From assembly GCF_902364945.1 (NCBI RefSeq), contig NZ_CABJFS010000002.1, positions 124,001-188,000 on the forward strand: a DNA stretch of 64,000 nt. Reading direction: 5' to 3'. Shown here one piece after another: positions 31,155 through 40,313 of this stretch (the stretch's first letter is position 1; each line of letters starts with the position of its first letter). This DNA comes from Collinsella aerofaciens (GTDB lineage Bacteria; Actinomycetota; Coriobacteriia; Coriobacteriales; Coriobacteriaceae). The position numbers were made by a program, and so were the translations under genes. Under the pieces are notes generated by a model. The model did not search any database. It was given only the letters and a program-made list of their open reading frames with translations, and was not told the origin of the DNA.

Positions 31155-31410
31155 ACCAGTGATCCTCCTTTATGGATCTGTGCCGCCCCGTGTCGTTCCG
31201 GGCGGCGTCGTACAGATTTGCCCAGCCTGCGTAAACCGCGCAGCCAGACATGGCGTTCTATCTTATCGCACCTGTGTCGATGTGCCGCGGAAAAGTAGTT
31301 CTCGCCCAAAGACTTGACGGAGACGAAACAATTGACGCGGCCTGGCCGTCGCCAAGGCGCGCCGCGTGCGACAATGTGCCCCAATACAACTGCACTCGGA
31401 AAGGCCCGCC

Positions 31411-32082: not shown

Positions 32083-32137
32083 GTTTCCGAACAATTTTGT
32101 CTTAGTGTTCGGAAACATACCCTTTGAGTGCTAGACT
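32083..32137 (+). promoter_or_regulatory. Promoter with TetR-like operator upstream of larB
   Basis: GTTTCCGAACA (32083-32093) and its exact complement (32106-32116) are separated by 12 nt. A -10-like TAGACT is at 32132-32137, and the right arm covers the expected -35 (32109-32114). The operon encodes its own TetR-type regulator at the end, the likely binder. No second copy was found near larA. Confidence 0.6.
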
Positions 32138-32160
32138 TTGCGCCGTCGAAGGGAACATAT

Positions 32161-32943
32161 ATGGATAAGCGAGATCTAGAGCAGCTGCTGAGCGATGTTG
32201 CCGGCGGATCAGTCACCCCCGCCGACGCCCTTACGCGCATCCAGACGGCTCCGACCGCCGATTTGGGCTTTGCGCAGCTCGATCTTTCGCGCGGGGTGCG
32301 CCAGGGAGCCGGCGAGGTTGTCTACGGTGCGGGTAAAACCGCCAAGCAGATTGCCGCCATTATCGAAGCGCTGCGCGATGCCGGCCAGGAGCGCATCCTG
32401 GTCACGCGTTTGGACGCCAAAAAGGCCGCCCGCACCTCGGAGCTTCTCGGCAACGGCATCGACCTGGGATATGTCCCGGACGCCCAGCTCGCCCTGGTGG
32501 GCGGCAAGCCCTCCCCCACCGGCAACGGGCGCATCGTTGTCGCCTGCGCCGGCACGAGCGACCTGCCCGTCGCCGAAGAGGCGGCACTGACGGCCGAGTT
32601 CTACGGCAACGAAGTCGATCGCCTCTACGACGTAGGTGTCGCCGGCCTGCACCGCCTGCTTGCGCATGCCGAGGAACTTGCCCAGGCGCAGGTGGTCATC
32701 GCCATCGCCGGCATGGAAGGCGCCCTGGCGAGCGTCATCGGCGGCCTGGTAAGTTGCCCGGTCATCGCCGTTCCCACCAGCGTGGGCTACGGCGCGAACT
32801 TTGGCGGCGTGGCCGCGCTGCTCGCCATGCTCAACTCCTGCGCCAGCGGCGTCTCGGTCGTCAATATCGACAACGGCTTTGGTGCCGCCTACCAGGCAAG
32901 TCTTATCAATCATCTGAGCGCCGGCACGCCCTGCGCCCGCTAA
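32161..32943 (+). CDS. larB: Nickel-pincer cofactor biosynthesis protein LarB
   Basis: A 260-residue protein related to the AIR carboxylase PurE. LarB carboxylates the pyridinium ring of NaAD and cleaves the phosphoanhydride, giving the P2CMN precursor of the lactate racemase cofactor. The C-terminal PurE-like core ('VVACAGTSDLPVAEEAALTA', 'AGMEGALASVIGGLVSCPVI') contains the expected catalytic Cys near residue 199, followed by 'AVPTSVGYGANFGG'. ATG 32161 follows GAAGGGA. larC begins 10 bp later, so they form an operon. Confidence 0.95.
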   Translation: MDKRDLEQLLSDVAGGSVTPADALTRIQTAPTADLGFAQLDLSRGVRQGAGEVVYGAGKTAKQIAAIIEALRDAGQERILVTRLDAKKAARTSELLGNGIDLGYVPDAQLALVGGKPSPTGNGRIVVACAGTSDLPVAEEAALTAEFYGNEVDRLYDVGVAGLHRLLAHAEELAQAQVVIAIAGMEGALASVIGGLVSCPVIAVPTSVGYGANFGGVAALLAMLNSCASGVSVVNIDNGFGAAYQASLINHLSAGTPCAR

Positions 32944-32953
32944 GGAGCATCCT

Positions 32954-33946
32954 ATGTCCAACCATCAGCACACGCTTATCATCGACGGCACCTCGGGCAT
33001 CAGCGGCGATATGACCGTTGCGGCCCTGCTCGACCTGGGTGCCAGTGAGGAGCACCTGCGCGAACAGCTCGCCACGCTGCCGGTCGATGGCTTTTCGATC
33101 GCCGTCACGCGCGTAAACAAGCACGGCATCGATGCCTGTGACTTTGACGTTCAGCTTGCAGAGGAACTCGAGAACCACGATCACGATATGGCCTGGCTCT
33201 ACGGTAATGAGGCTGCTGTCGAGCGCGAGCATGAGCATATGCATATGCACGAGCACGAGCACGAGCACGAGCATGAGCACCATCATCACGACCATGTTGA
33301 GCACGACCATGTTGAGCACGACCATGTTGAGCACGACCATGTCGAGCACGACTACTGCCACGAGCACGACCATGGGGAGCACGGTCATGGCCACGAGGGT
33401 CACCATCACGCCCACCACCATCACCACCGTTCTTTGGCGGACGTCACCGCCATTATCGATGGCTCGCAGCTAAGCGATGGCGCCAAGCGTCGCGCCCTCG
33501 CCATCTTTACCGCACTCGCCGCCGCCGAGGCCAAGGCCCACGGCAAAACGCCCGAGACCGTCATGTTCCACGAGGTGGGCGCCGTCGACTCCATCGTCGA
33601 CGTCTGCTCTGTCGCCATCTGCCTCGATGACCTGGGTATTGAGGACATCGTGGTTGAGTCGCTCTCCGAGGGTCACGGCACCATCCGCTGCGCCCACGGC
33701 CTCATGCCCATTCCTGTGCCCGCTGTCGCCAACCTGTGCCAGGCGGGCAATATTGCCCTCACGCCCGCACCGGTCGCCGGTGAGCTCGTGACGCCCACGG
33801 GCGCCGCCATCGTCACCGCGCTGCGCACATCCGAGCATCTTCCGGCCCGCTACTGCATCGAAGCCGTCGGCTACGGCGCCGGCAAGCGTCCCTACGAGGG
33901 CTGCTCCGGTACGCTCCGCTGCCTGCTCGTTCACGCGGACGCATAG
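32954..33946 (+). CDS. larC: LarC nickel-insertion protein, LarC1 domain only, with long His-rich insert
   Basis: A 330-residue protein. Residues 1-90 and 159-330 are LarC1 ('IDGTSGISGDMTVAALLDLG', 'VMFHEVGAVDSIVDVC', 'GELVTPTGAAIVTAL', 'GYGAGKRPYEGCSGTLR'). Between them, residues 92-158 contain 34 histidines and are built on nucleotide repeats. LarC inserts nickel into the pincer cofactor as a CTP-dependent cyclometallase. The C-terminal LarC2 domain needed for CTP use in the Lactiplantibacillus protein (made there by a programmed frameshift) is absent: the next gene, tetR, starts 3 bp after the stop. AAGGAG precedes the start. Confidence 0.9.
   Translation: MSNHQHTLIIDGTSGISGDMTVAALLDLGASEEHLREQLATLPVDGFSIAVTRVNKHGIDACDFDVQLAEELENHDHDMAWLYGNEAAVEREHEHMHMHEHEHEHEHEHHHHDHVEHDHVEHDHVEHDHVEHDYCHEHDHGEHGHGHEGHHHAHHHHHRSLADVTAIIDGSQLSDGAKRRALAIFTALAAAEAKAHGKTPETVMFHEVGAVDSIVDVCSVAICLDDLGIEDIVVESLSEGHGTIRCAHGLMPIPVPAVANLCQAGNIALTPAPVAGELVTPTGAAIVTALRTSEHLPARYCIEAVGYGAGKRPYEGCSGTLRCLLVHADA
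33248..33349 (+). repeat. In-frame tandem repeats inside larC
   Basis: Six-base CACGAG-type units (33248-33280) encode His-Glu repeats. Four 15-bp units (33290-33349, the last with one T to C change) each encode DHVEH. Both periods are multiples of three, so slippage would change His-tract length without breaking the frame. Confidence 0.9.
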
Positions 33947-34667: not shown

Positions 34668-34787
34668 GTCCGCATGGGGCAACTTCCCAGCGCATTCCGC
34701 AGGACGAAAGAACCCCCGCCGCAGTTCAGTGCGCAGCGGGGGTTCTTTCATGTCCGAGGACGCGCTGGGAAGTTGCCCCATGCGGAC
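34668..34787. repeat. Long-arm palindromic element A (conserved core, unique outer arms)
   Basis: Lies in the 323-bp gap between the convergent tetR and MIP-channel genes; the rest of the gap (34489-34667) shows no gene. From outside in: perfect 26-bp arms (34668-34693 and 34762-34787), 12-nt linkers (ATTCCGCAGGAC and ATGTCCGAGGAC), a perfect 14-bp inner stem (34706-34719 and 34736-34749) and a 16-nt loop. The whole folds as one near-continuous hairpin. It probably acts as a bidirectional terminator. The core recurs at 37188-37314, but the outer arms do not. Confidence 0.85.
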
Positions 34788-34811: not shown

Positions 34812-35543
34812 CTAGAACATGCCCAAGAAACCATGCACAAACAACGCAGCCACGATGGCACCGACAAACGGAGCGATGCCAGGAACAAGCAGGCCGTACT
34901 TCCAGTTGTTGTCAGCCTTGTTCTTGATCGGCAGCACCTGATAGGCCATGCGAGGACCAAGGTCACGAGCCTGGTTCATGGCGAAGCCGGTGATGCCGCC
35001 CATGCCCATGCCAACAGCCCAAACGATCAGGCCGACGCAGATTGCGAGCATCAGAACGTTCTCGCCGGCGCGGCTAGCGGCAGCAAGGATGGCGCTGATG
35101 AACACGAAGGTGCAGATAGCCTCGCAGAAGAAGTTACGAGCATAGTTCGTGCCCTCGGTGGTGGGGTTGGTCGAGAAGATGTTGCGCTGGGCAATGGGGT
35201 CGACGACGCCCTCGGAAGCCTTGAACTCATCGGCATACATAAACCAAGCGATCACGGCACCCACAAAGCCGCCGAGCATATCGGCAAGCATGAAGGGGAT
35301 GCAGTTGCCCCACGGCACCAGGCCGACGATGCACTGGGCAAGCACCATGGCGGGGTTCATGCACACAGCGCCACCAAAGACAAACAGGCAGACCGAGATG
35401 CCAAAGGACCAGGTGGTGATGGCAAACATATGGCCGGAGCCCTGATACTTGGTGCCCTTGAGCACGGTATCGCAGTGAACGCCCACGCCAAAGACGATCA
35501 TGAGGGCCGTTGCGCCGAATTCGCAGAGGAGTTTGGTAAGCAT
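34812..35543 (-). CDS. MIP-family channel (aquaglyceroporin type), probable lactic acid channel
   Basis: A 243-residue six-helix protein with two half-helix loops. The first signature is the standard NPA ('GGAVCMNPAMVLAQ'); the second reads NQA ('GFAMNQARDLGPR') where NPA is usual. It lies 49 bp downstream of larA on the same strand. In lactobacilli a GlpF paralogue (LarD) in the lar operon conducts lactic acid; the same role is likely here but rests on context. Glycerol or water transport is the alternative. Confidence 0.88.
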   Translation of the reverse strand: MLTKLLCEFGATALMIVFGVGVHCDTVLKGTKYQGSGHMFAITTWSFGISVCLFVFGGAVCMNPAMVLAQCIVGLVPWGNCIPFMLADMLGGFVGAVIAWFMYADEFKASEGVVDPIAQRNIFSTNPTTEGTNYARNFFCEAICTFVFISAILAAASRAGENVLMLAICVGLIVWAVGMGMGGITGFAMNQARDLGPRMAYQVLPIKNKADNNWKYGLLVPGIAPFVGAIVAALFVHGFLGMF

Positions 35544-35592: not shown

Positions 35593-36870
35593 CTAGTGCT
35601 GTGCGACAACAACACCCAGGCCATCGGGGATGACGGCGACCTTGGCATCGGCACCCTTCATCTCAAAGGCGAGCTTGAGCGCTTCCTCGATAGTGTTGAC
35701 CGGCGTCATGTGCATATCCTTGAGCATCTGGTGATCGCACAGGTCGGTGACCATGATCACAGGGTGATGCGCCAGGATGCGGGCAAAGATCTGGCTCGTC
35801 CACTGATCGGGCAGGGTCTCGTCCTTAGGACGATCGATGCAGGCACGCTCAAACTCTGCCGGATCGTTGTCGGCGATGTTGTGATAGAAGCCCTCGCCGC
35901 CGTGACCGTCGGCACAACCGGCGACATCGATAATCACGCCACCCTCGGGAAGCGTGGCCTCGGCAGCGCACATGCCCTTCACAGCCTGATAGATGTTCTG
36001 ATCGAGGGGGTAGCCGCCGTTAGTGGTAATGGCGATCTCGCACTCGACGGGCTCAACGCCGGCAAGGCTCTTCACGAACTCGCAGCCAGCCTCGTGCGCC
36101 TTGTGGATGTCGCCGGCAAAGGAGCCAATGACCTCGTGCTTGCCGTTGAGCACCACGTTGAGCACAAAGGCAAGGTGAGCCATCTCGGCGGCGGCAAACA
36201 TGTCCTCGCTCACGTGGTTGTGGCACAGGTTGCCGGCACGCGAGTGGGAATCGTTCACAAACTGACCGTTGTGGTTGTACATGATGGTCTTGTAGCTGGC
36301 GATGCCAGGCAGGACGGACTTGCGGCTACCAGAGAAACCGGCAAAGAAGTGCGGCTCAATAAAGCCCTCGGCAAGCAGCAGATCGCAATCGGCCGCGATC
36401 TTGTTGATGATGCACTCGCCACCAGAAGGCAGGGTGCCGATCTTTTTCATCATGCTGTCGTCAGTCGCGACGTGCATAACGATTTCTTCGTTGGCAACGA
36501 TCTCCTCGCCGTACTTGTTGACGAGCTCCTCGTGCGTCGACGGACGATGCATACCCGTAGCAACCAGAATGCGAACGCGCGCCTCAGGCGCAGCGGAATG
36601 GATGTGATGCAGCAGAATAGGCATCGTCACACGCGAGGGAACGGGACGCGTATGATCGGAGCTAATGATGACAATATCCTTCTTGCCAGCACAAAGCTCC
36701 TCGAGCGAAGGCGAGCCGTAAGGGTTGGCAAGCGACTCCTCCACCAGCTCTTCCTGCGATTTCGTGGTCTTAAACTCGTTTTGATGACCTTCCATCACAC
36801 CCGCGAAGTTCTTATCCTCGAGTTCCAGATGCAACGTCTTGTGGTCAAACGGCAGTTCACATTCAAACAA
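35593..36870 (-). CDS. larA: Nickel-pincer lactate racemase LarA
   Basis: Interconverts L- and D-lactate with a Ni pincer nucleotide. The start is placed at TTG 36870 (425 residues) behind GGAAGAGGG. With that start the key residues fall at the numbering of Lactiplantibacillus LarA: Asp72 and Arg75 ('SDHTRP'), His108 ('ATGMHRP'), His174 ('EPHFF'), cofactor-tethering Lys184 ('GSRKSV') and His200; Tyr293 and Lys297 are one off. LarA homologues can act on other 2-hydroxy acids, but larB and larC nearby support this call. A MIP channel gene follows; no larE is in the window. Confidence 0.92.
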   Translation of the reverse strand: MFECELPFDHKTLHLELEDKNFAGVMEGHQNEFKTTKSQEELVEESLANPYGSPSLEELCAGKKDIVIISSDHTRPVPSRVTMPILLHHIHSAAPEARVRILVATGMHRPSTHEELVNKYGEEIVANEEIVMHVATDDSMMKKIGTLPSGGECIINKIAADCDLLLAEGFIEPHFFAGFSGSRKSVLPGIASYKTIMYNHNGQFVNDSHSRAGNLCHNHVSEDMFAAAEMAHLAFVLNVVLNGKHEVIGSFAGDIHKAHEAGCEFVKSLAGVEPVECEIAITTNGGYPLDQNIYQAVKGMCAAEATLPEGGVIIDVAGCADGHGGEGFYHNIADNDPAEFERACIDRPKDETLPDQWTSQIFARILAHHPVIMVTDLCDHQMLKDMHMTPVNTIEEALKLAFEMKGADAKVAVIPDGLGVVVAQH

Positions 36871-37187
36871 TGACGAGCGCCCTCTTCCTTTCAACTGACA
36901 CACTAGATAAACCGTTGGAAGGATACGCCGCTCACCGAAAAACACCACCGTCTACCGACTCATTAACACAACGTTCATATTTGACCCACAACAAAACGGC
37001 CACGATCCCAAACGGAACCGCGGCCGCTACAGTCGTAAGTCGAGAAGCGCCACATGCATCTCAATCCCGATCGATAAGACGCGAGGCGCGAAGCGCCAAA
37101 CGCGCCGCCGGGACAAACCCCATCCAAAACGCGCAAAGCGCGCCATTATTCCCCCAGCCAGTAATCCACCGAAGACCGGACATCGTA
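36871..37187. other. Intergenic region upstream of larA, no gene seen
   Basis: The 317 bp between the larA start and palindromic element B contain only short shadow frames. No -10/-35 pair stands out, and no copy of the larB operator is present. It should hold the larA promoter. Confidence 0.5.
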
Positions 37188-37314
37188 GGGCCCGCCATCA
37201 GCTTACTTTTAGGCACACTCCGCAGGACGCAAGAAGCCCTCGCCGCACGAAGTGCGCAGCGAGGGCTTCTTGCATGTCCGAGGACGTGCCTAAAAGTAAG
37301 CTGATGGCGGGCCC
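37188..37314. repeat. Long-arm palindromic element B (conserved core, unique outer arms)
   Basis: Same architecture as 34668-34787: perfect 29-bp outer arms (37188-37216 and 37286-37314), 12-nt linkers (ACTCCGCAGGAC and ATGTCCGAGGAC), a perfect 15-bp inner stem (37229-37243 and 37259-37273) and a 15-nt loop. The right linker is identical and the left differs by one base from element A, yet the outer arms are unrelated. It begins 21 bp after the ppc stop and probably terminates ppc. Confidence 0.85.
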
Positions 37315-37335: not shown

Positions 37336-40149
37336 TTACCCCGTGTTCTGCAATCCTGCCGAGACGCCGGTCACAGTCGAAAGAATCAGGCTCATGTACT
37401 CGGCCTTCTTCTCCTCGGCCATCTCGTCCTGGTTCATGCGCACCTCGCGAAGGGCGCGGACCTGGGCGATGGACAGGGCGTCGACGTAGGGGTTGCGCAC
37501 GCGAACAGCGCAGCCAAGCACGCGGCGGCGCTGCAGCGGCCACTCGTCACCGACGATGGCAAGGACCCACTTACGGGTGAGCTGCATCTCGGTGAAGACC
37601 TTCTCGGACAGATCCTGGCGATCGCCCAGGTGCAGGTACATCTTGGCGATGCGCTGATCGGTCTTAGCGATCGACATCTCGATGTTGTCGATAAAGGTGC
37701 GGAAGAACGGCCACTCCTGGTAGGCAGCCTTGAGCTGGTCAAGATCGCCCAGCTGCTCGCAGGCGGTGCCCAAGCCGTACCAAGCGGCCAGGTTAATGCG
37801 TGCCTGGCTCCAGCTGAAAATCCACGGAATGGTACGCAGGTCGTCGAGCGACTTGGCACCCAGGCCGCGCTTGGCCGGGCGCGAGCCGATCGGCAGCAGA
37901 CCGACCTCGGTCAGCGGCGTCACGGTCGAGAACCACGGTGTAAAGTCCTCGGTGTTCAGCAGGTCCAGATAGCGCTCATGGCTTACTGCGTTGAGCTTCT
38001 CCGCCATATCCCAGAACTTCTGCGTGGTCTCGGTGTTGGTCCTCTCGACGCTCGGGGCCGACTGCAAAAGCGTTGCGGCGGCAACGGACTCAACATGGCG
38101 CTGAGCCAGCGTGCGGTTGCCGTAACGGGCAAAGATGACCTCGCCCTGCTCGGTGAGCTTAAAGAAGCAGTTGACCGAACCCTTGGGCTGCGCCAGCACG
38201 GCCTTGTTGGCCGGGCCGCCGCCACGGCCCACGGCACCGCCGCGACCGTGCATGAGCACCAGGTCGATATCGTTCTTCTCGGCCCACTTGGCAATGCGCT
38301 CCTGCGCGGAGTGCAGCGCGAGCATGGCCGTGGTAGGACCGGCATCCTTGGAGGAGTCGGAATAGCCCAACATGACCTCCATGCGGCGGTTGGTCTGGGC
38401 AAGGCGCTTTTGCACCACGGGCAGCGTAAGCATCTGGTCGAGCACGTCGACGCAGCCCTCGAGGTCCTCGAGCTGCTCGAACAGCGGGATCACGTCGAGC
38501 TCGGGGACATCCTCCTCGTGTGCAAAGGACAGGTGGGCAAGCTCAAAGACGTCGGCCACATGCTGAGCGCTCTTGGTGAACGAGATGATGTAGCGGTGCG
38601 CCATCTTCTTGCCGTAGCGCTTTTGGATGGAGCCGATGGCGCGGAAGGTATCGATGACCTCGCGCGTCATGGGCTGCAGATCGCCGTGGATACCGTTCTC
38701 GTGGATATCCTTGAGGGCGCGGGCGTGCACCACGGAGTGCTGACGGAACTCCATCTCGACCATATGGAAGCCGAAGGACTCGACCTGCCAGATGATGGTC
38801 TGGACCGGGCCGTAGGCAGCACGGACGGCACCGCAGGCGGCCAGGGAGCGCTGGACGACGCGCAGGTCATCCAGGAACTCGTCTGCGCTGTGATACATGG
38901 TGTCGGTGATGCGACGAACGGTGGCGTTCAGACGGTCTGCCATGACGAGCATGACGGCGCGATGCGGCTCGTGCTCGGAGATCAGCTCGGCGCGGGCCGT
39001 GTACTGGGTGCTCATCTCGACCTGATGGTTCCACAGGTTGATGAGCTCGGCAGACGGCTTGCTGTAGGTGGCCTCGAGCGTCAGGTTGCGGCCGATGCGG
39101 CGGCACTTGTCCTCGAGCTTGAGCACCATGTGAGTGAAGTACTTGGCGGCGACCTCGCGGCTCACCTTGGCGGTGACATTGGGGTTGCCGTCACGGTCGG
39201 AACCGATCCAGCTGCCGGGATGGAAGAACGCCGGGCACAGCGGCGGCACGGTACCGGCCTTGTCGCCCAGCACCCAGTCGTCAAAACGACGGTAGATGAC
39301 GGGAATCACATCGAACAGCGTGTTATCGAAGATGTCGATGATGGTATCGGCTTCCTCGACCGGCGTAGGCTTCTTAAGCGCGATGGGGCTCGTACGCACC
39401 AGGGCGTCGATCTCCTGCAGCATATGGCGCTCGTTCTCCACCAGGTCGGAGCCGCCCAGGCGCGGGCGCTCCTCCAGCAGGTTGGAGATGCGGCGAATCT
39501 TGCCCTCGACGGCCTTGCGACGGGCCTCAGTGGGATGCGCGGTAAAGACAGGGTGGAACTCAAGCTTGCCGAGCAGTTCGTTGGCGCCCTCGACGCCCAT
39601 CTCATCCACCAGCTGGTGATAGGCGACGGTGAGCTCATTGGCGGGGTCGACAACGGTGTCGGTCGACGCGCCGGCCTCACGCTCGCGCAGCTGAGCCACA
39701 CGGTAGTTCTCCTCCGACAGGTTTGCCAGATGGAAGAAGCTCGTGAAGGCGCGAACGATGACCTGCTGCTTATCGAGCGGCAGACTGTCGATCAGATCGA
39801 CGACCTCGCGAAACGCCACGGCGGTGGGCTCGTCGGCGGTGGGCACGCCCTGCTCGTCGACGGCCTCGTCGGCAGCACGGGCACCGGGGTTTCCGGCGTT
39901 GGCCACAATCTCTGCCGTCAGGATCTTGTCGAACAGGTCCGCGATCTCGGGATCATACTCGCTAAGCACACGGCGCTCCAGGCGCAGGAACAGCGCCAAG
40001 TTGTCGCGCAGCTCCTCGGGGATCTCGATCTCGGCGAGACGCTCCCTGGACTCGGCATTCGAGCCGATTCGGTTAACGAGGCGGTTGACCACGGCAGCGA
40101 CGCGCGCCGCGGCTTCGGGTACAGACTGGTTGCTTAGGTTCTCAGCCAC
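37336..40149 (-). CDS. ppc: Phosphoenolpyruvate carboxylase
   Basis: Makes oxaloacetate from PEP and bicarbonate, refilling the C4 pool for fermentation and amino acids. About 937 residues from GTG 40149, preceded by GGGAGGAAAC; an ATG four codons earlier sits too close to its own GGAGGA. Catalytic motifs are intact: 'FTAHPTEARRKAV' (His), 'GSDRDGNPNVTAK', 'MLGYSDSSKDAG' (Lys) and 'HGRGGAVGRGGGP'. The protein ends 'SAGLQNTG', the usual Ppc C-terminus. Monocistronic, with a long hairpin after it. Confidence 0.97.
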   Translation of the reverse strand: MAENLSNQSVPEAAARVAAVVNRLVNRIGSNAESRERLAEIEIPEELRDNLALFLRLERRVLSEYDPEIADLFDKILTAEIVANAGNPGARAADEAVDEQGVPTADEPTAVAFREVVDLIDSLPLDKQQVIVRAFTSFFHLANLSEENYRVAQLREREAGASTDTVVDPANELTVAYHQLVDEMGVEGANELLGKLEFHPVFTAHPTEARRKAVEGKIRRISNLLEERPRLGGSDLVENERHMLQEIDALVRTSPIALKKPTPVEEADTIIDIFDNTLFDVIPVIYRRFDDWVLGDKAGTVPPLCPAFFHPGSWIGSDRDGNPNVTAKVSREVAAKYFTHMVLKLEDKCRRIGRNLTLEATYSKPSAELINLWNHQVEMSTQYTARAELISEHEPHRAVMLVMADRLNATVRRITDTMYHSADEFLDDLRVVQRSLAACGAVRAAYGPVQTIIWQVESFGFHMVEMEFRQHSVVHARALKDIHENGIHGDLQPMTREVIDTFRAIGSIQKRYGKKMAHRYIISFTKSAQHVADVFELAHLSFAHEEDVPELDVIPLFEQLEDLEGCVDVLDQMLTLPVVQKRLAQTNRRMEVMLGYSDSSKDAGPTTAMLALHSAQERIAKWAEKNDIDLVLMHGRGGAVGRGGGPANKAVLAQPKGSVNCFFKLTEQGEVIFARYGNRTLAQRHVESVAAATLLQSAPSVERTNTETTQKFWDMAEKLNAVSHERYLDLLNTEDFTPWFSTVTPLTEVGLLPIGSRPAKRGLGAKSLDDLRTIPWIFSWSQARINLAAWYGLGTACEQLGDLDQLKAAYQEWPFFRTFIDNIEMSIAKTDQRIAKMYLHLGDRQDLSEKVFTEMQLTRKWVLAIVGDEWPLQRRRVLGCAVRVRNPYVDALSIAQVRALREVRMNQDEMAEEKKAEYMSLILSTVTGVSAGLQNTG

Positions 40150-40313
40150 GTTTCCTCCCATTCCTCCTTCTATGCACGTAACATGCGGTATTCATTATAG
40201 GCGCTTGAGAAATACTTTCGACACTGATTGCGCTTTACCACACAAAAGTATTTTCTGCATTGCAAGGGTTTTTGCTCTAAATGGTCGTATTTCTCGGTGG
40301 ACGGCATACACAA

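Follow-up and report, generated by a model that had tools for sequence, protein, structure and literature searches.

The window considered here, i.e., the whole analysed stretch of 64,000 nucleotides from Collinsella aerofaciens, harbors two long hairpins, elements A and B, located shortly behind the ends of two minus-strand genes encoding an aquaporin (major intrinsic protein) and phosphoenolpyruvate (PEP) carboxylase, respectively (Table 1). The initial annotation described A as a nearly continuous hairpin with 26-bp outer arms, 12-nt linkers and a 14-bp inner stem, 24 bp from a stop codon, and a letter-by-letter check agrees with this. The linkers are ATTCCGCAGGAC (34694-34705) and ATGTCCGAGGAC (34750-34761), the inner stem is formed by positions 34706-34719 and 34736-34749, and the stop codon is the TAG of the aquaporin gene (34812-34814, minus strand). 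Element B is 127 nt long vs. 120 nt in A; its 29-bp arms pair with no mismatch, and the TAA stop codon of the PEP carboxylase gene is 21 bp away. The linkers of B resemble those of A, as had been noted, with a single difference over 24 positions. The view that the outer arms of A and B are unrelated holds in part: they mostly differ, but 12 of 26 bases are shared when the arms are aligned on the core, and a loose common pattern can be discerned by eye among the arms of many copies.

The calculated folding energy amounts to -113.4 kcal/mol for A (z = -15.4) and -119.2 kcal/mol for B (z = -17.0), with 0 of 200 shuffles as good in either case. The meaningful strand of both elements is the minus strand, i.e., the sense strand of the adjoining gene. 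Around locus A, the window contains genes which we take to be nickel-pincer lactate racemase-like (larB-, larC- and larA-like; 32128-33946 and 35593-36948), the larC-like one featuring a long histidine stretch. An aspS RNA motif (RF02930) is situated at 31166-31249, upstream of a putative aspartyl-tRNA synthetase gene.

Table 1. Features of elements A and B and their host genes (coordinates within the window).
Feature	Position	Strand	Basis or remark
Element A, whole hairpin, family copy	34668..34787	- (sense strand)	Letter-by-letter check; matches model R1 and, independently, model R2
A outer arm (3' arm on sense strand)	34668..34693		Perfect complement of 34762-34787, 26 bp
A outer arm (5' arm on sense strand)	34762..34787		Letter-by-letter check
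A cap 5' half, GUCCUCG	34755..34761	-	Invariant in 34/34 rows of alignment A2 (rows chosen on these motifs)
A cap 3' half, CUGCGGAAU	34694..34702	-	CUGCGGAA invariant in 34/34 A2 rows (motif-chosen rows); final U nearly invariant
A inner hairpin within cap	34706..34749		Long in the C. aerofaciens group; down to GGCC-loop-GGCC elsewhere
A loop, putative scar GCAGTTCA	34721..34728	+	Same letters as an end of the insertion sequence in relatives' loop
A host gene, aquaporin / major intrinsic protein	34812..35543	-	PF00230
Element B, whole hairpin	37188..37314	-	Letter-by-letter check and R2 match
B outer arm (3' arm on sense strand)	37188..37216		Letter-by-letter check
B outer arm (5' arm on sense strand)	37286..37314		Letter-by-letter check
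B cap 5' half, GUCCUCG	37279..37285	-	R2 match
B cap 3' half, CUGCGGAGU	37217..37225	-	R2 match
B host gene, phosphoenolpyruvate carboxylase	37336..40161	-	PF00311

The capped hairpin family and its distribution

Further copies of the linker pair, anticipated in the initial annotation, do exist: G001, the nearest genome compared (sharing 33% of the window's 31-letter words), contains eight exact copies at the right spacing, and the reversed control pattern gave none. Among the matches listed from an exact-linker scan of named genomes, copies with long paired arms were numerous in Collinsella; the listed matches from outside Collinsella were set aside as chance occurrences, since they pair over at most 8 bp beyond the linkers.

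Two models were employed for the search of copies. The long-form model, R1, whose early counts were inflated by reverse-strand self matches, misses copies with a short core: in the genome G021, it gave no matches and R2 at least 12; in G014, three matches were obtained with R1 and at least four with R2. Long copies number 15 in G003 and 16 in G020, and two strong short-core matches are also present in G003. The short-core copies were drawn from a search for the cap pattern, positive in 51 of 197 genomes (many of the matches have no hairpin in the gap), and from 31 stretches examined. The model R2 was built from 34 copies with a short inner hairpin (alignment A2), A and B not being among them. 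Rows entered A2 when they contained the cap motif and had no fewer than 5 of the 6 bases beside the cap paired; hence, the six pairs beside the cap do not constitute independent evidence, and the invariance of the cap is in part a product of this choice. One row (L287) was placed by hand-derived coordinates, and its ends are poorly aligned. In the window, with an E-value limit of 10, R2 matched A (34677-34778, minus, E 3.2e-9) and B (37201-37301, minus, E 1.6e-8) and nothing else.

On the sense strand, a short-core copy comprises, in this order, the stop codon, approximately 15 nt, a long stem, often a small loop, a 6-bp stem (e.g., GCGAAC/GUUCGC) and the cap, GUCCUCG-hairpin-CUGCGGAAU, with a median of 29 aligned stem positions under the cap. 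The latter consists of two small asymmetric internal loops around the inner hairpin; its sequence and orientation are fixed, and the stems are freely variable. In A2, 17 of 22 pairs vary on both sides, which none of 500 shuffles matched. Two-sided variation was also found in 23 of 38 pairs in 20 aligned copies of the long form (shuffle mean 15.9; 0 of 500 equal), where the number of pair types did not exceed that in the shuffles (36 vs. 39.8). Thus, the family combines covarying pairs with a conserved unpaired motif in a fixed orientation, the hallmarks of a conserved structured RNA.

At E <= 0.001, R2 detected the family in 104 of 395 genomes of Coriobacteriales, the order to which Collinsella belongs, representing 20 of 123 genera; 22 of these 104 genomes were weak positives (best E 1e-5 to 1e-3). 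This search scored 13 candidates per genome, and the copy counts derived from it are lower bounds; a closer scan of four genomes at E up to 0.01 returned 19, 15, 12 and 7 matches. In a phylum-wide sample of 296 genomes, 15 were positive, 10 within Coriobacteriales and five outside, four of the latter weakly (E 3e-4 or worse). The fifth genome outside the order, G561, gave three R2 matches (best E 2.8e-9), which may reflect a real wider range, transfer or contamination. The host of the best of them (L346) is a D-Tyr-tRNA deacylase gene.

No Rfam 15 family reached its gathering score at A or B in the window, nor in a permissive search of A and ten family loci; the sub-threshold matches at the elements, represented by eukaryotic microRNA precursors and a few unrelated RNAs, scored far below the gathering scores. 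Judging from the sequence comparisons, A and B represent the long-stem form of a putative 3' untranslated region element spread across Coriobacteriales, with a fixed cap and a free stem. A different hairpin, with arms of approximately 28 bp (GCCGTCGGAACAGAAGAAACCCCCGCGC) and devoid of the family cap, was encountered in G003 and G020 (L173 and L191).

Location behind genes and persistence of the loci

Gene context was derived from a hexamer gene finder and a stop-codon test, simple longest-ORF calls being misleading in GC-rich DNA. By the gene finder, 128 of 139 places (repeats counted) have the element following a stop codon in sense orientation; by the stop-codon test, 82 of 92 distinct long copies and 35 of 47 distinct short ones possess a sense stop. 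The remainder display either a longer frame on the opposite strand (one long and seven short copies) or neither (nine long and five short). Several copies lacking an assigned sense stop have short hosts, e.g., an 83-residue glycyl-radical protein and Hsp20, and 2 of the 15 long copies in G003 are without an assigned sense host. In copies with a sense stop, the distance from the stop codon to the cap is narrowly distributed, with a median of 47.5 nt (long) and 48 nt (short), the respective medians to the stem being 15 and 16 nt. In two places, a pair of elements in opposite orientation is found approximately 310 bp apart (L166/L171, G003:C1:213844-214247; L182/L184, G020:C40:11556-11955).

The hosts in G003 and G020 encode GroEL, pyruvate:ferredoxin oxidoreductase, a glycyl-radical protein, class II aldolase, Pta, iron alcohol dehydrogenase, PEP carboxylase, aquaporin, an aminotransferase, an esterase, a P-type ATPase, a GHMP kinase, an ABC transporter ATPase and a semialdehyde dehydrogenase. 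In other genomes, the element follows genes for rubrerythrin, BipA, Hsp20, a universal stress protein, an RNase PH-family exonuclease and formate-tetrahydrofolate ligase, along with off-theme hosts (a glycosyltransferase, an NlpA lipoprotein and an FtsX-like permease, for example); among the host proteins, there are some stop-to-stop frames clipped by the locus edge. With ribosomal-protein genes as the yardstick (most of them at 0.63-0.87), the codon adaptation of 13 G003 hosts had a median of 0.70 vs. 0.53 in 38 window genes (p = 4e-5), seven hosts being at 0.70-0.83 and the other six at a moderate 0.57-0.64. A second count, in which orthologues of two genomes enter twice (the 13-host count being from a single genome), gave 0.67 for the hosts, an intermediate 0.60 for the neighbouring genes and 0.52 for the window genes. 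Hence, the hosts are enriched for high codon bias, suggesting genes that are often strongly expressed.

At locus A, the hairpin is retained in all 21 relatives readable at the site, in three of them (L196, L202, L206) interrupted in the loop; four more distant aquaporin-bearing genomes, where the site is not readable, are outside this count. At locus B, 21 relatives carry the hairpin, according to a hand count 13 with a GGAC/GTCC and eight with a GCAC/GTGC inner core, and seven more distant genomes are without the element in the 210 nt compared; 13 further matching genomes are left out of this comparison. The only clear empty site is locus B of G014 (L242): approximately five bases lie between the flanks where the relatives have a hairpin of approximately 130 bp, and neither arm remains, which may signify ancestral absence or deletion.

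The same C-terminal host ends recur in distant Collinsella, namely those of GroEL (L151, L157), pyruvate:ferredoxin oxidoreductase (L153), Pta (L155) and the P-type ATPase (L156); the identity of these hosts was deduced from the C-terminal ends, and Pfam families were assigned on the G003 homologues. The copies at these genes, first seen as weak R1 matches, have long, well-paired arms that look unrelated to those in the C. aerofaciens group, and some of these copies possess a minimal inner hairpin. The inner hairpins fall into several types (GGAC/GTCC, GCAC/GTGC, GCGC/GCGC, GACCA/TGGTC, GGG/CCC), which differ at one and the same locus with similar outer arms (most clearly in L160/L190, also in L171/L182 and the locus B alleles), as if cassettes were swapped between copies.

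The interruption of the locus A loop in three relatives (G010, G025, G022) is due to an insertion sequence with the ends TGAACTGC...GCAGTTCA, which looks IS3-like by eye. The second end of the insertion was seen for two of the three interrupted copies; the insertion also concerns the loci L374 and L375, and GTG is present on both of its flanks in L375. The loop GCAGTTCA in the window looks like the scar of a past insertion deleted at GCA.

Pairing of the arms

In 105 distinct long-form copies pairing beside the core (at least 12 of 16 paired bases there were required for this statistic), the arms have a median length of 29 bp, and 66 of the 105 copies are without a mismatch. Watson-Crick pairs make up 98.1% of the 2976 arm pairs, the mismatches being 23 G-U, 22 A-C and 11 other (sense strand). 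What this requirement leaves out is seen in the 99 long copies with a folded inner part: 95 of them pair beside the core, L024 is out of register by a single base, and three have lost an arm. At one locus, behind a glycyl-radical (grcA-like) gene, one arm has been replaced by other sequence (L021, 3409-3474; L079, 7658-7723; L277), and in L021 and L079 a short-core copy is found behind the same kind of gene end. In the short-core stems, Watson-Crick pairs account for 91.8%, and 2 of the 47 are free of mismatches; near-perfection is, therefore, a trait of the long form only.

Selection on stems in the mRNA strand is expected to leave many more G-U than A-C mismatches. No clear asymmetry of this kind was revealed by the strand test, every count leaning slightly to G-U (a gapped recount gave G-U/A-C of 21/13 in long and 21/20 in short copies), and the near-equality of the two counts against simple selection on the RNA strand. 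Within orthologue clusters, 59 of the two-sided changes were transitions and 56 were transversions; the G-U and A-C states numbered 25 and 18, respectively. Between close orthologues, 24 two-sided changes were recorded (18 transitions and six transversions), and their spectrum resembles that of single changes at nearby gene ends (78 transitions and 18 transversions; Fisher p = 0.57). Another 47 events between close orthologues have a mismatched state (44 are one-sided; the states are 21 G-U and 12 A-C), so the arms may also be maintained by slow two-step compensation; the six two-sided transversions cannot pass through G-U.

According to the initial annotation, each pair of arms looked freshly copied from one side to the other. 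As an insertion event, this is not supported; as a continuing process of template switching, such copying is plausible from the sequences, given the paired changes between close relatives and the copy L203, in which an exact reverse complement of the left linker stands in place of the asymmetric right one, as side-to-side copying would give. L203 is the only such copy among 373 loci scanned and could represent an assembly error. Template switching has been proposed to create and maintain perfect RNA stems (PMC8794818), and quasi-palindrome mutations have been linked to strong transcription in yeast (PMC3820800).

Possible roles and comparison with known systems

The orientation of the element, its spacing from the stop codon and its asymmetric invariant cap point to the mRNA as the place where it operates. 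The explanation ranked first, to which we ascribe an even chance of being right, is that the hairpin works at the mRNA level, as a 3' structure that binds a factor and stabilises the message. It would sit just beyond the footprint of the terminating ribosome and block 3'-to-5' exonucleases, conferring long life on the messages for abundant enzymes and chaperones, and the invariant cap would be bound by a putative factor. The arms would be kept paired by selection for a long duplex, with template switching between them in the course of DNA synthesis copying a change from one arm to the other. The moderate codon bias of 6 of the 13 G003 hosts argues against this reading, as do the two long G003 copies without an assigned sense host. 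Besides, a 29-bp duplex is a good substrate for RNase III, hence the stem might be cut rather than protect the message.

A more far-reaching version, advanced tentatively and with odds somewhat short of even, is that of an order-wide post-stop RNA module. A dedicated Coriobacteriales factor recognizing the cap would single out the mRNAs of abundant enzymes for a long life or for the formation of their 3' ends. Its stems would be "blank", i.e., needing mainly to pair; the long-form ones would be kept perfect mainly by transcription-linked template switching, and their sequence would turn over fully.

The main rival of the mRNA-stabilising structure, which we regard as unlikely, is an unusual terminator whose GC-rich stem would halt RNA polymerase without a proper U-tract or via a cap-bound factor, in convergent pairs in both directions. 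The elements are indeed GC-rich stem-loops at gene ends, the next gene, where found, is usually more than 100 bp away, and several inner stems have A-rich/T-rich ends; moreover, a two-way function would need strict Watson-Crick pairing. A canonical terminator occurs within 150 nt downstream in 17 of 137 copies vs. 6 of 21 control gene ends (within 200 nt), in line with the same explanation. However, intrinsic terminators require neither outer arms nor an invariant cap, and some copies (L146, L177, L361, L365) have an ordinary terminator downstream. No U-tract was found directly after the stem: the raw fraction of T in the 8 nt there, given without a background rate, is 0.30 in 92 long and 0.36 in 47 short copies. 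Of the modular terminator family entertained in the initial annotation, there remains the modular gene-end family, but not the U-tract.

Still less probable is a DNA-level element akin to REP/BIME, whereby a cruciform or a bound protein (e.g., gyrase or a nucleoid protein) would handle supercoiling behind strongly transcribed genes and the RNA form would be incidental. It would accommodate the mismatches without clear strand asymmetry, the nearly G-U-free pairing of the long form and the high codon bias of the hosts; an insertion sequence in the loop, as in the three relatives, has been reported for such repeats (in a work cited by PMC8040213). Against it stand the single orientation relative to the gene and the narrow distance to the stop codon, where a 15-nt spacing serves no DNA need, as well as the asymmetry and strand conservation of the cap.

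Finally, the initial suggestion that a mobile or recombinogenic core inserts itself and duplicates its flank in inverted form is very improbable and largely refuted, since, despite the multiple copies per genome (fewer in G014 than in G003 and G020), the variation of inner hairpin types within a locus and the one empty site, the same host genes are followed across distant species at a narrow stop-codon distance, the positions are conserved while the arms are replaced, locus A is occupied in every readable relative, and the sole clear empty site, that in G014, has neither arm. Accordingly, the shifting positions and the empty sites with one target copy characteristic of mobile elements or MITEs are not displayed by the family.

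Should the mRNA-stabilising reading be true, Coriobacteriales gut bacteria such as Collinsella would share a device at the ends of their central-metabolism messages, and its cap would be a binding site suitable for fishing out the cognate factor. The family also represents a natural replicate experiment on the long-standing question of how long RNA stems remain perfectly paired, since one structure recurs over numerous loci and species, the arms being repeatedly replaced.

In the literature searched, no description of the element was found at the level of titles and the beginnings of abstracts. It may be listed unnamed in the supplementary tables of PMC8040213. The latter work names palindromic candidates from Bacteroidetes and one from Collinsella, HMP2_254, located upstream of L7/L12, which is different from the capped hairpin family. 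The Collinsella-1 RNA motif (RF01700, PMC2864571) shares with the family the genus name and the nature of a structured RNA; it matched neither the window at the gathering score nor A and ten family loci at permissive thresholds. An informal comparison of the cap with kink-turns and ribozymes revealed no fit. The attC sites of integrons, which also combine a gene followed by a folded site with a free stem, were set aside: the conserved bases would be expected in outer boxes there, and here they are at the cap.

The REP sequences of E. coli are likewise palindromic, multi-copy and intergenic, with a subset no farther than approximately 15 nt from stop codons and reported effects on translation (PMC12306157). 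However, REP are short, 20-40 bp (PMC3733652), vs. 120-127 nt in A and B, which do not conform to a short imperfect palindrome. Unlike REP, the family has an invariant asymmetric cap, free stem sequence and one orientation; its positions are shared across species, and its copies per genome are many fewer. With Rho-independent terminators, it has in common a GC-rich hairpin at the gene end, but lacks the U-tract, possesses the invariant cap and has arms longer than termination needs. Perfect stems, paired changes and the proposed arm-to-arm copying are shared with template-switch hairpins (PMC8794818); that work covers RNA genes in sequence databases, whereas here one family over loci and species provides parallel replicates. 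Overall, this is a new family within a known general kind, structured gene-end RNA, of an unusual design with a fixed cap and a blank stem.
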